Source: Candidatus Sumerlaeota bacterium (lineage in GTDB: Bacteria > Sumerlaeota > Sumerlaeia > JAFGJS01). Taken from it: 17,718 nucleotides of DNA. The notes below the pieces were generated by a model. It had not been told where the DNA came from. It did not search any database and worked only from the letters and a program-made list of their open reading frames with translations. The stretch is from positions 1-17,718 of the forward strand of contig JAFGJS010000043.1 of NCBI GenBank assembly GCA_016928995.1, read 5' to 3'. Below are positions 4,377-13,287 of the stretch, piece by piece. Both the position numbers and the translations under genes were made by a program. Numbering within the stretch: position 1 is the stretch's first letter; each line of letters opens with the position of its first letter.

Positions 4377-7256
4377 ATGTCAATTTGTGCATGGTGTTTT
4401 TTCATTGTTGATATGGATGATCCGAAAAACATAAATCCACTCTCTTCTATTATTGATGCGATGAAAAAGGCCTGTGCCGGCGACTATTCGGCGCAACTCC
4501 CACAATCCGACGCTGATGATGAACTTCACAAACTCGCCAAGGCGACAAACGCTCTGATTCAACAACTGAAACGCCGTGAGGATCAACTCAGACGATTTGA
4601 TGAGGATTCCCATCAGGCTACCGAGAGATACCAGCGCCTGGAAACCAATATTCCGGGCATGGTTTATATCTTCGCGCAGCATACCGATGGCAGTTATTCG
4701 TTTCCTTACGTCAATCCCGCTTCGCGTGAAATGTTCGGCATCGAGCCTGACGCTTTAATGCGCGACTGGATGCTATTAGGCGGCCGGATCCATCCTAAAG
4801 ACCAGGGCCGTTTTTATCAGTCAGTGCTTTCTTCGGCCCAAAATCTGACGCCATGGCGACAGGAACTGCGTCTGATCTCCGAGGACGGGGAAGAACGTTG
4901 GTACGACTGTATCTCCCGGCCTGAGATGCAGCCGGACGGAGAGATTTTATGGGACGGCATCATTTTAGACATCACCGAACGCAAACAGGCGGAGAACAGC
5001 CTGCTGCTGACTCGATTCTGCTTCGAACATACCTCCGTGGGGATTATTCTGTTTGATCCTGATGGCATGGTCGTGGATGTCAATCCGGTCGCATGCAAAA
5101 ACATGGGTTACACACATGAGGAATTATGCCGTTTGGATGTCTATAAAATCGATCCACTTGTCTCCACTGAAGATGTTCAGGAACTTTTACGGAAAATGCG
5201 GATCAAAGGCGTCCATGTCTTTGAGAGCGTCCATCAGCGCAAGGATGGCTCTCGATTTCCAGTCGAAGTCACGCTTAATGGTTTTAAATACGATTATGAT
5301 AATTATGTGATTTGCTTCGCTAATGACATCACCGAACGTAAAAAGGCGGAAAAGGCGTTGCGGGAAAGCGAGATCAAGTACCGCCTGCTGCATGAATCCA
5401 TGATGGATGCGTTTGTCAGCCGCGACATGGAAGGCCACATCCTGGAAGCCAATTCAATCTATCAAAAAATGACCGGATACAGCCTGGAAGAGTTGCATCA
5501 GATGACGTACCAAGACCTGACTCCTGCGAAATGGCATGAACCGGAGCAGAACATCGTCAAGCGAGAAGTGTTAACGCGCGGCTTTTCCGAAGTTTACGAA
5601 AAGGAATACCTTCGGAAGGATGGAGCAATCATCCCCATCGAACTGCGCACATACCTGCTGCGCGACGATTCCGGCGAACCTTGCGGATTGTGGGCGATGA
5701 TCCGCGACATCAGCGAACGCAAAATGACCGAAGAGCATTTGCGGTTGATTGAGTTTTGCGTCGAGAACAGCTCCATCAGCATCTTCCAGGTTGACGAGCC
5801 GGACGCGCGAATCCGGATGGCCAATAAGCATGCTTGCGATACTTTGGGCTATACCCGGGAAGAACTCTGCAATATGTCAGCCTTGGAGATCGACACCAAC
5901 GTCACGCTTGAGGGCTGGCGGAAGCACCGGAAGAATATCCGCAAGTCGAAATCACGCACCGTTGAAACGACGCATCGCCGGAAAGACGGCACAACTTTTC
6001 CCGTCGAGGTGACCATCAGTTTCTTCAACTTCAAAGGCAAGGAATACGCTTTTTCTTTCGTGCAGGACATCACGGAACGGAAAAAAGTGGAAGAGGATAA
6101 CGCTAAACTGGAACTGCAGTTGCGTCAGGCTCAAAAACTGGAATCCGTCGGTCAACTGGCCGGCGGCATCGCGCATGATTTCAACAATATGCTCAGCGTT
6201 ATCCTGGGCTATGCCGAACTGCTGAAACTCGATTTGCCTCTGGAATCGTCCGAATGGAGTCATGTTCTCGAAATCGAAAAGGCGGCCACGCACTCCAAGG
6301 AAATCACGCGCCAGTTGCTTGCTTTTTCCCGGAAGCAGATCATCGCTCCGGAATCCATCAACCTGAATCAACTGATTGACGAGAGAAAAAAGACCCTGGC
6401 CCGGTTGATCGGTGAAAATATCGAACTGCGTTTCATTCCGGCGGACGATCTGGGATTGATCCGTTTCGATCCATCGCAGTTGGATCAGATTCTGATCAAT
6501 CTCGCCATCAACGCCCGGGACGCCATGCCTTCCGGCGGCAAGCTGACCCTCGAAACTGGAAACGTGACGCTGGATGAGGAGTATTGCCGGACCCATGTCG
6601 AACACCGCCCGGCCAGCTATGTGCTGCTGAAAATCAGCGACAACGGGATCGGCATGGACCGGGAAACCGTGACGCATGTTTTCGAGCCGTTTTTCACGAC
6701 CAAGGAAGTCGGCAAGGGCACGGGGCTTGGATTGGCCACGGTTTACGGAATCATCAAACAAAATGAAGGCACGATCAACGTCTATAGCGAAGTCGGTCTG
6801 GGGACGACATTTAAGATTTATATTCCAAGAAGCGATGATGCGCCGGAAAGCCGTAAAAGAGCGGAACCGATATCGCTGATCTCCGGCTCAGAAACCATTC
6901 TGCTGGTGGAAGATGATGAAATGGTGCGTGGCATGACGAGCGCCATGTTGGAGCAGCTGGGATACACAACGATCATTGCAGACTCTCCGGAACATGCCGT
7001 CTCGATTTGCGAGGATAACGATGATAAGGTCGATCTTCTGCTGACCGACGTGGTCATGCCCGGAATCAGCGGCACGGAATTAAGCGAGAAGATTCAAAAA
7101 TTCCGTCCGGGCATCAAGACGCTCTACATGTCCGGATACACCACCAACGTCATCGTCCACCACGGGATGCTGGAAGACAGCGTCAATTTTATCCAAAAGC
7201 CTTTCAGCCTGAATGATCTCGCGCGAAAAATCCGCTTAACCCTCGACGAATCCTGA
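4377..7256 (+). CDS. Soluble hybrid sensor histidine kinase: HAMP-like, four PAS, kinase core, receiver
   Basis: A 959-residue hybrid kinase. Order: a HAMP-like stretch (20-72), four PAS/PAC units each ending in a D-I-T/S-E-R-K box (about 85-204, 212-323, 331-449, 455-570), HisKA with GGIAHDFNN (phospho-His600), HATPase with [12 protein letters not shown] (N box), DNGIGM (755-760), PFFTTK and GKGTGLGLA (779-787), then a receiver (840-957) with D846-D847, phospho-Asp891 and Lys941. All catalytic residues are present. No transmembrane helix is evident, so it probably senses a cytoplasmic signal. The receiver has no output domain, so phosphate likely passes to another protein or drains away. Neither ATG4377 nor ATG4413 has a good ribosome binding site; the first twelve residues ([12 protein letters not shown]) look atypical, so 4413 is a fair alternative. 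The stop abuts that of the convergent gene. Confidence 0.92.
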
Positions 7257-10044: not shown

Positions 10045-10093
10045 ATGGGACGGGCGACCGGATTTGAACCGGCGACCAACGGAGCCACGATCC
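10045..10093 (-). pseudogene. 3'-half fragment of tRNA-His, att-like
   Basis: This stretch matches the intact tRNA-His at 13209-13257 at 46 of 49 positions, and the first 33 bp (10045-10077) are identical. The copy covers the encoded CCA, acceptor 3' strand, T arm, variable loop and anticodon loop. It then loses similarity inside the anticodon stem, so no D arm or 5' acceptor strand exists. It cannot fold as a tRNA. One change also turns the invariant U33 before the GTG anticodon into C. Its position beyond the 3' end of the intact tRNA fits the distal attachment-site remnant of an integrated element; an old partial duplication is the alternative. Confidence 0.8.
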
Positions 10094-10344
10094 CTGCTTA
10101 TGCCTTCTTATTCCTTGTCATAAGTAATGTGAGCAGAGCGACAAGAATTGGAATCCTCATAATGGCAACGATTTAGTATGATTTTATTTGTTATATGAAT
10201 CAATATAATGATTTGATCGGATTATCGAAGGGATCGAAAAAAATTTAAGAAACAATGCAATTTTTGGTCAGATTGAGTGTCCTTTCTTATATAAGGGCGC
10301 GAAATTCGCATTCTATCAAGATCGACACCTGATCGAGCCGACAT

Positions 10345-10349
10345 GGAGG
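10345..10349 (+). promoter_or_regulatory. Shine-Dalgarno GGAGG fixing a GTG start
   Basis: GGAGG followed by a 6-nt spacer precedes the GTG at 10356, giving a clear initiation site for the sigma-factor gene. Confidence 0.7.
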
Positions 10350-10355
10350 AGCGCC

Positions 10356-11723
10356 GTGCATTTGGATGAAGAGGCTCGCACGGATCTGAAATTGATTCGT
10401 GCAGCTCAAGATGGGGATGTGTTAGCGTTTGAGGCGATTGTCGAGCGCTATTTTTCAATGATCTACGCCATCACTTACAGCAGGTTGGGAAATCGCGAGG
10501 CGGCGGAGGATCTCACTCAGGAGGTTTTTCTTCGCGTCTATCTCCATTTCGATCAATTGCAGAATCCAGAACGCTTTGTTCCCTGGCTTTGTCGGATCGC
10601 CCGAAACCTTGCGATCAATCGGGGAAAGCAGAACTACCGTCATTCGAAGCTGCTATCTCTAGCGCCTGAGACGACGGAGAATATTCCAGATGAGACGGAA
10701 ATAAATGCGCAGGAAACCATGACACAAAACGAAGAAAACAGAATCGTACATCAAGCAATCATGCAATTGCCGCCAAATTTACGCGAAGTTGTGCTGTTGC
10801 ACTTCATGGAAGGGCTAAACAAAGCGCAGATCGCTACACGGATGGATTCACATCCTTCAACCGTCGGGCGCCAATTGGATAAGGCCCTTCTCTCGCTGAG
10901 ACAATTGCTGACGCCCGTTCTTCATGAATCGATGAAGGCCTTGAGACCGAATCGCCGGATTGTGCGTCGCACAGTTGTGCAAATCGGCCTGGTGTCCGCG
11001 CTGTCGGCGAATGCCAAGGACGCTCTTGCGTTAGCGGACGGGGGGGCTGACGCGATTGCGGCCGCCGGCGCGGTGGGGGGGAGCATTGGAAAGACGACAG
11101 GCGTGAGCGGCATCGGGAGCGCTCTACTTTGGATGATGAAAAGGACATCCATTCAGTATTTTTCCAACAAAACTGCGGCGGTTATTGTAACGACGATCGG
11201 GATGATTGCGGGGGGATTTTATTTTGTATCGGAATATCAATCCGGCGGACCGCCGCATTATCGCAGGGAAATCAGGGAGGTTCGAAGGGCTTTTCTGGCC
11301 TACCAGGCCCATGTTCGCGCGGGAAATGCGATCGCCGCGGCGGATGCATGGGATACTGAGTCGCTGGCAAGATTGTCAGGGCGCGACGAAAGATGGTTGC
11401 ATACCAATTTGGGAGGACACGCGATCGTCGATGAGTCACGACAAATGATCGGCAATCTCACTATTGATTCGATTTCTGTATTTCGAACGGAAGCAGTCGA
11501 ATTGATTCCTCTTTCGCTTGATTCTTCAATGAAAGAAGTTTCTGAACCGGTGCGGATCGAGCCTCCGATCATGGAAGTGAAGGCCGGGGTATGGAACGGT
11601 TATTTTCACAAGAATGGAAACGAGTGGAAATTGATTAATGATGAGTCTCCGTTAAAAGAGGAAATGGAATCTTTCGGTCGATGGCAAGTGACGCCAATCG
11701 AAGAGGATAATGAGATGAATTGA
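10356..11723 (+). CDS. ECF-like sigma factor fused to a membrane anchor and outer domain
   Basis: A 455-residue protein starting at GTG with GGAGG upstream. Residues about 20-95 are sigma region 2 (AFEAIVERYFSMIY, EAAEDLTQEVFLRVY, FVPWLCRIARNLAINR). Residues about 130-185 are sigma region 4 (IMQLPPNLREVVLLHFMEG, then a helix-turn-helix QIATRMDSHPSTVGRQLDKA). A low-complexity Ala/Gly-rich linker follows (205-258), then one hydrophobic helix AAVIVTTIGMIAGGFYFV (about 274-291). The C-terminal 150 residues, predicted to be outside the inner membrane, begin with an amphipathic helix and then strand-like segments, loosely recalling NTF2/SnoaL-like folds (weak). ECF factors are usually held by a separate anti-sigma factor; none is adjacent, so the outer domain may sense the signal itself. 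The downstream propeller gene could be its target or partner. By eye its DNA is more AT-rich than the genes outside the tRNA repeats. Confidence 0.85.
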   Translation: MHLDEEARTDLKLIRAAQDGDVLAFEAIVERYFSMIYAITYSRLGNREAAEDLTQEVFLRVYLHFDQLQNPERFVPWLCRIARNLAINRGKQNYRHSKLLSLAPETTENIPDETEINAQETMTQNEENRIVHQAIMQLPPNLREVVLLHFMEGLNKAQIATRMDSHPSTVGRQLDKALLSLRQLLTPVLHESMKALRPNRRIVRRTVVQIGLVSALSANAKDALALADGGADAIAAAGAVGGSIGKTTGVSGIGSALLWMMKRTSIQYFSNKTAAVIVTTIGMIAGGFYFVSEYQSGGPPHYRREIREVRRAFLAYQAHVRAGNAIAAADAWDTESLARLSGRDERWLHTNLGGHAIVDESRQMIGNLTIDSISVFRTEAVELIPLSLDSSMKEVSEPVRIEPPIMEVKAGVWNGYFHKNGNEWKLINDESPLKEEMESFGRWQVTPIEEDNEMN

Positions 11724-11911
11724 TTATCCAATTCATAAAGTCGTTTTAACAATTCGCCTTCTGTGTGTGGAGCCGCAGAGCCGCATCGTTCTCTCCAAGC
11801 GATATTCATACGAAATCAGGGAGGAATAAACGCTTAAAAAGCGCGCTGGCACAACATACCCAAAAATCGAAAAAGAATCACACAATCAACGTTTGGAACA
11901 GGAGCCTTATT

Positions 11912-13183
11912 ATGTTCATGAAAATGCTTTCCTCGGTTTTAACAATCACTCTATTGATTGGATCACATGCATTTTGCGTTACGCAAACAATTCAAATCGA
12001 TGCAGCCGCTAATAGATATAGTGGAACATTTTCCGCTGACGTGGCGATGGCGCCAACCGGCGAGTTTGTTGTTGTCTGGTGCAACGGAAACCCAGCCTCG
12101 GGGAATATTCATGGACACCGATACGACTCAACCGGAAATCCGATTGGGAATTCGTTTGCGATTTCCGCCGTTGACTATTCATATAAGCCTCGCATCGCCA
12201 TGGCGTCATCCGGCGAGTTTATTGTCGTATGGCATCGGATAGACTATGACAATCCATTATCCGACGATGTGGCGACAATTCATGCCCGTCGATATAATGC
12301 GCAAGCGACAGCGCTTGGACCGGAATTCCGAGTCGACACGAATGAACCGACGGTGAGTTTGCCTTCATATTTGGCAAGATTTCCTGATGTGTCCATGAAT
12401 GACGATGGCGCTTTTGTCGTCGTCTGGTCCAACTGCACCGGCCCTGGCGGACATAGCATTGTGGATTATCACATCCATGGCCGCGCTTATAATTCCTCAG
12501 GCGTCGCTTATGGATCGGAATTCAGAATTTCGAACCTGGCCCATACCGACATGCCCTGTTCGACGATCGATGCAGACGGCGACTTTATCGTATGCTGGGA
12601 ACATCATGGCGATGCGAATCACCTTCCATACGATTCATATTTAAACACCCGGCATTATAATGCAGATGGAACACCCAAAAACGATCCGACTCAAATCAGT
12701 CCCGCGATTATCTCCCCGGGAGCCACATATTTTAGAATAGCGATGAATGAAGATGGGGATTACGGCGTTGTCTGGCATCGTTATGATGCGGAGGATATTC
12801 AATGCCGGCAATTCGCTTCTTCCGGCGCCGCGTCAACTTCAGCATTCAAATTGATTGGAATCGCCCATCATTATTACCTATCCGGTTTTTGTATGAAAGC
12901 CGATGGGCGTTTCATCGTTTCCTGGCTGGAAATGACTGACGCTGGAGAAAATGTATATGCCGCATGGTTTAATCAAAACGGAGATCAAAGGACGATGGTG
13001 ACACGAATCAGCACTCCCTTGAATGAGGCCCAGGCATCGTACGGCATGGCCATTAATGAAAACAATCAAGCCGTTCTTATCTGGGAAAAAGCAGAAGCGG
13101 ACGGATACCATCTCATTGGAACGCTGAATCCCACATTCGTAAATATGCCGACATCGACGCTTGATTGGCGGCGTTACCAATAA
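11912..13183 (+). CDS. Secreted seven-repeat beta-propeller-like protein
   Basis: A 423-residue exported protein. The frame is open back to 11765, but the ATG at 11912 is chosen because AGGAG lies 7 nt upstream and the protein then begins with a signal peptide (MFMKMLSSVLTITLLIGSHA). The rest holds seven imperfect repeats of about 45-55 residues. Each has a core like D-V-A-M-x-x-x-G-E-F-V-V-V-W, a variable loop, then H-x-R-x-Y-N/D-x-x-G and a closing strand such as GSEFRIS. Examples are APTGEFVVVW, NDDGAFVVVW, DADGDFIVCW, NEDGDYGVVW and KADGRFIVSW. Seven repeats suggest a seven-bladed propeller. No catalytic motif, membrane anchor or sorting tail is visible, so binding or surface display is only an inference. 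It follows the sigma-factor gene by 188 bp on the same strand, and no terminator was found between them. Confidence 0.8.
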   Translation: MFMKMLSSVLTITLLIGSHAFCVTQTIQIDAAANRYSGTFSADVAMAPTGEFVVVWCNGNPASGNIHGHRYDSTGNPIGNSFAISAVDYSYKPRIAMASSGEFIVVWHRIDYDNPLSDDVATIHARRYNAQATALGPEFRVDTNEPTVSLPSYLARFPDVSMNDDGAFVVVWSNCTGPGGHSIVDYHIHGRAYNSSGVAYGSEFRISNLAHTDMPCSTIDADGDFIVCWEHHGDANHLPYDSYLNTRHYNADGTPKNDPTQISPAIISPGATYFRIAMNEDGDYGVVWHRYDAEDIQCRQFASSGAASTSAFKLIGIAHHYYLSGFCMKADGRFIVSWLEMTDAGENVYAAWFNQNGDQRTMVTRISTPLNEAQASYGMAINENNQAVLIWEKAEADGYHLIGTLNPTFVNMPTSTLDWRRYQ

Positions 13184-13209
13184 TCCAATGAGTAGGAATT
13201 ACAAATTGA

Positions 13210-13287
13210 TGGGACGGGCGACCGGATTTGAACCGGCGACCTACGGAACCACAATCCGTCGCTCTAACCAACTGAGCTACGCCCGCC
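13210..13287 (-). tRNA. tRNA-His (GTG)
   Basis: A complete cloverleaf reads on the - strand. The 5' end carries the extra G(-1) typical of histidine tRNA, opposite C73. The acceptor stem is GCGGGCG with CGCCCGT, the D arm GCTC/GAGC, the anticodon stem ACGGA/TCCGT with loop TTGTGGT (anticodon GTG), and the T arm GCCGG-TTCAAAT-CCGGT. CCA is encoded at the 3' end. A possible promoter is TTGACT (13363-13368, - strand) with a poor -10, CAGACT, 17 bp on. The 3' half is duplicated at 10045-10093. Confidence 0.95.

Follow-up and report, generated by a model that had tools for sequence, protein, structure and literature searches.

The tRNA-His locus and its displaced 3′ fragment

The window analysed here is the whole of contig C86 (17,718 bp), from a 4.55 Mb genome that is assembled in 161 contigs and is ~92% complete. 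It contains an intact tRNA-His gene, which is the sole His(gtg) gene in the genome's set of 48 tRNA hits, and, downstream of it on the same strand, a second copy of its 3′ portion (Table 1). Two open reading frames lie between the copies, one for an ECF sigma factor and one for a secreted beta-propeller protein, and the segment is directly flanked by genes for a radical SAM protein and a 1061-aa protein.

Table 1. Features of the tRNA-His locus (window coordinates).
Feature	Position	Strand	Basis or remark
Intact tRNA-His (GUG), CCA encoded; putative regenerated target, attL side	13210..13286	-	ARAGORN; Rfam tRNA, 68.6 bits
Displaced tRNA-His 3′ fragment (nt 30-77); far end of putative element, attR side	10046..10093	-	45/48 identical
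Putative integrated element	10094..13209	.	GC 48%
AT-rich (37% GC) non-coding stretch, fragment to sigma gene	10094..10355	.	No trace of an integrase at E<=0.001
ECF sigma factor: regions 2 and 4, hydrophobic helix (~residues 274-295), C-terminal tail	10356..11723	+	Pfam, NCBIfam, family alignment, structure model
Secreted beta-propeller protein, N-terminal hydrophobic (signal-like) segment	11912..13183	+	Repeats; AlphaFold2; Foldseek

The first-pass annotation had reported a perfect 33-bp repeat, 46/49 matches over a longer span and an offset of 3164 bp, and all three values were reproduced exactly on recomputation: the perfect block occupies positions 10045-10077, the longer span includes one extra matching base in the flank, and the offset is the start-to-start distance between gene and fragment. 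The fragment matches the intact gene at 74.3 bits (E 1.5e-14). It starts at the anticodon arm and runs to the exact 3′ end of the tRNA, including CCA, and it therefore covers both known crossover zones, the anticodon loop and the T arm. The three mismatches (tRNA positions 34, 39 and 45; T>C, T>C and A>T) all fall in the half containing the anticodon arm and variable loop. The first of them abolishes U33, which is invariant in the tRNA anticodon loop, and because of this loss the fragment does not represent a functional tRNA. It is intergenic, lying outside any ORF with a Pfam domain and outside any other tRNA. A T near the 3′ end (CCCGTCCCA) is common to the fragment and the intact gene and is absent from all 20 relatives compared.

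The match is not due to chance. As a pure control, the regions downstream of the 47 other tRNAs of the genome were searched with the window itself left out (400,634 bp); the best non-tRNA match scored 24.7 bits, as opposed to 74.3 bits here, and none of the 47 had a match resembling an end fragment. In the rest of the sampled genome, the 48-nt segment had no ungapped match better than 32/48, and the genome has no tRNA-His fragment other than this one. The first-pass annotation had also considered that the fragment might be a separate, decayed tRNA-His with its own old 5′ half. This was not borne out: aligned to the tRNA 5′ half, the 80 nt on the 5′ side of the fragment scored 16 against a shuffled mean of 17.8 (p=0.80), and no tRNA-His 5′ half was found anywhere in the 3.1 kb between the copies. 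In one relative (G005, L216:6214-6427), two identical tRNA-His genes stand in tandem, their starts 137 bp apart.

Composition and gene content of the segment

The composition of the segment is atypical, not extreme. Its GC content of 0.479 lies at the 2.2nd percentile of 3164-bp windows drawn from ~0.5 Mb of the genome (mean 0.559), and its dinucleotide distance at the 92nd percentile. In codon usage, the sigma and propeller genes score at the 2.3rd and 1.8th percentiles, respectively, and both directly flanking genes are typical in GC and codon usage. A comparison of GC and codon bias inside and outside the repeats, as had been proposed beforehand, thus places the inside near the 2nd percentile. 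This fits a separate history of the segment without proving it. Elsewhere in the window, a gene for a PAS-rich sensor histidine kinase with a receiver domain (4377-7256) also has a GC content below that of its neighbours (0.508; 8th percentile).

The sigma gene is an intact ORF of 455 codons. Among the NCBIfam hits shown for its product, the sigma70-ECF superfamily model alone reached its cut-off, and matches in PHROGs were to generic sigma or transcription families; a named-genome scan gave no match. The structure model is confident for the sigma domains alone and does not resolve the tail. ECF sigma factors with C-terminal extensions are known (PMC8103513), and the protein resembles them in having regions 2 and 4 followed by such an extension; it differs in that the extension comprises a predicted membrane helix and a variable tail. 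Relatives with membrane tails occur across Sumerlaeia and are numerous in some genomes (at E<1e-27, G002 has 13 such places and G029 has 9); the genome of the window has one, on contig C105. This expanded family (L145-L164 and the window gene) combines a membrane helix with highly variable C-terminal tails, and it is possibly an undescribed ECF group. In three of the regions (L155, L161 and L164) the sigma gene overlaps a gene with a pseudopilin-type N-terminus or has one within the next two genes. Relatives usually sit away from tRNAs, and no tRNA fragments were found in the homologue regions. Since sigma factors of this family are native to the class, a foreign origin of the cargo is not required.

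The propeller ORF is also intact (423 codons), and its stop codon lies 26 bp from the 3′ end of tRNA-His. No Pfam family was detected in the protein. Its AlphaFold2 model is all-beta (pTM 0.83) and looks like a propeller of the seven-bladed type, the number of blades being tentative. Foldseek retrieved propellers, lyases and sialidases among them, with TM ~0.45-0.56 and 8-12% identity; no catalytic activity can be deduced from these matches. Sequence relatives are repeat proteins, encoded in genomes of the class and by plasmids from Pantoea and some alphaproteobacteria, the plasmid matches among those listed being remote repeat matches of 23-27% identity; no relatives were found in phages.

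A search for the same two genes at other tRNA sites did not find them together elsewhere: no propeller match lay near the sigma homologues in any of the 20 regions examined, and neither gene has relatives in viral contigs. Because the pair is not seen again at other tRNAs, a new type of satellite is without support. Nor does anything support the first-pass suggestion of a minimal or satellite element equipped with a transcription factor of its own; the sigma factor is a member of a chromosomal family present across Sumerlaeia.

Recombinase genes and genomic context

The segment has no integrase, as the first-pass annotation had held, and no relaxase, phage gene or remnant of an integrase was found in it either; a six-frame search for tyrosine recombinases (PF00589) recovered none in the window. 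The search identified a single intact tyrosine recombinase in the genome, a 311-aa ORF on contig C46 that we read as Xer-like from its sequence and its place among housekeeping genes. A broken C-terminal remnant of another (MGHENLTTTARYLHA) is located at a contig end (G000:C147:169-288(-), L166) and is the trace of a former mobile element. Serine recombinases are encoded on C113 and C29, but tRNA genes are not known as targets of this class of enzyme (PMC4383910). With no integrase in the window, an Xer-like protein on C46 and a broken gene on C147, we conclude that the element is integrase-less and that a helper, if any, would lie outside the assembled part of the genome.

In four genomes of the class, the 3′ end of a tRNA gene is closely followed by a convergent tyrosine integrase gene, at tRNA-Thr (G033), tRNA-Pro (G021), tRNA-Arg (G010) and tRNA-Gly (G028). 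The propeller gene of the window occupies the same place and orientation. No 3′ fragments were detected, within the DNA available, at tRNAs near tyrosine-recombinase genes in these four genomes or in G007 and G006, and these genomes therefore provided no complete integrase-bearing island as a positive control. Near the fragment, possible arm-type sites amounted to weak short repeats, for which no claim is made, and scans for promoters and terminators yielded no more hits than shuffled sequences did. We found no relative of the element that carries transfer genes.

Sumerlaeota at ~41-44% identity are among the closest named matches of the radical SAM neighbour, and the 1061-aa neighbour has relatives in one other genome only. 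In the flanks read (<=1.5 kb), none of the many relatives of the radical SAM gene has a tRNA-His beside it. Among 20 class members, close relatives of the flanking genes were not found around tRNA-His; synteny of the flanks is not conserved. On another contig of the genome (G000:C97:72208-72560; L254:4209-4560), tRNA-Phe precedes two tRNA-like genes that overlap each other; their anticodons are ATG and TTA, of which TTA would read a stop codon. The pair could be a pseudo-tRNA array or a suppressor-like tRNA.

Origin of the segment and its relation to known islands

We regard the segment as probably an integrase-less element that integrated site-specifically, a solitary relic of an island, akin to a CIME, that has kept two intact cargo genes. 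It looks like an island of a known and common kind, apparently old and now immobile. An attP site carrying the 3′ half of tRNA-His would have recombined, in the manner of tyrosine integrases, into the only tRNA-His gene of the genome; the 3′ half brought by the element would have restored the gene, and the old 3′ half would have been displaced by 3164 bp. We infer that the integrase was lost afterwards rather than originally absent, along with any transfer genes, and that the two remaining genes were probably kept for host use. The fragment, its side and strand, the size and composition of the segment, and the lack of a 5′ half and of an integrase give good support to the integration into tRNA-His that the first-pass annotation had proposed, and to its option of a relic that became resident. 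If the crossover took place in the anticodon loop, the three differences represent later drift in an unconstrained fragment; if it took place in the T arm, they may predate the event, having been present in attP, and integration could be recent. Two intact ORFs this long beside a fragment with 6% change suggest either selection on the genes or a crossover in the T arm.

More tentatively, architecture and adjacency raise the possibility that the sigma factor controls its neighbour. Held in the membrane, it would sense an extracytoplasmic signal through its tail; once released, it would transcribe its own gene and the adjacent gene for the secreted propeller.

Other histories of the locus were weighed against integration. 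A tandem tRNA-His duplicate, of the kind present in G005, could have lost its 5′ half through an adjacent insertion or rearrangement without any site-specific recombinase, which would be in keeping with a segment that has no integrase. We consider this unlikely, as no trace of a 5′ half remains beside the fragment or in the 3.1 kb, the composition shifts between the two repeats, and an insertion plus a deletion ending at the anticodon arm would be required, whereas one integration explains all of the anatomy. Misjoining of a metagenomic contig at the tRNA repeat deserves a mention given the fragmentation of the genome, which is probably a MAG like its named relatives; it is scarcely credible, since the usual assembly k-mers are longer than the 33-bp repeat and the two flanks have typical GC and codon usage in common.

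The element might instead be non-autonomous and still mobile, either mobilized in trans or carried along by accretion with another user of the same att site. Both att-like sites remain, with 33 identical bp, both genes are intact, and streptococcal CIMEs move by accretion (PMC5704250, PMC7563491). Against such mobility, which we judge improbable, stand the lack of an intact phage-type integrase in a genome that is 92% complete, where only the Xer-like and broken recombinases were found, and the lack of a second tRNA-His fragment or a second cargo pair. It would be more far-fetched still to suppose that tiny non-autonomous elements spread modules of sensor-sigma and surface-protein genes among tRNA sites of Sumerlaeota with integrases supplied in trans.

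Integration with subsequent loss of the integrase, our preferred reading, can be set beside described systems. Islander recognizes a tRNA gene accompanied by an end fragment of the same gene, on the correct side and in the correct orientation, 2-200 kb apart, the fragment lying outside other tRNAs and Pfam-domain ORFs, with a tyrosine integrase (PMC4383910). The locus resembles Islander islands in its regenerated tRNA-His, its 3′ fragment displaced downstream on the same strand by 3164 bp, and the coverage of known crossover zones by that fragment. It differs in size, 3.16 kb being far below the peaks at 13.6 and 40 kb (PMC4383910), and in having no integrase, so that Islander would reject it; among the criteria checked, the integrase alone has no counterpart here. 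CIMEs are decayed ICEs or IMEs that keep attL and attR and have lost their recombination and transfer genes (PMC5704250, PMC7563491), and classical examples measure 1.2-13 kb (PMC7563491). Our element falls within this range and has cargo and att-like sites, whose att function is inferred from the tRNA repeat, without integration or transfer genes. Unlike CIMEs, it is solitary and has never been seen to move, and its ancestor may have been an ICE, IME, prophage or satellite, so that we call it CIME-like rather than a CIME. With Tycheposons, tRNA-bordered islands of 4-200 kb that carry a tyrosine recombinase gene (PMC10872708), it has in common a cargo island at a tRNA gene, but it is smaller than 4 kb and has no such recombinase. 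From phage satellites it differs in consisting of two ORFs only, without integrase, packaging or phage-interference genes.

In prokaryote genomes, tRNA fragments that stem from integration should be pervasive (PMC9897764), and the tRNA-His island, ordinary in kind, alters no general view by itself. It is a clean tRNA-marked island reduced to its cargo in a little-studied uncultured phylum, and island finders that require an integrase gene would miss such an element. That a tRNA island contains a membrane-tailed sigma factor offers a hint as to how members of this expanded family may occasionally be moved.
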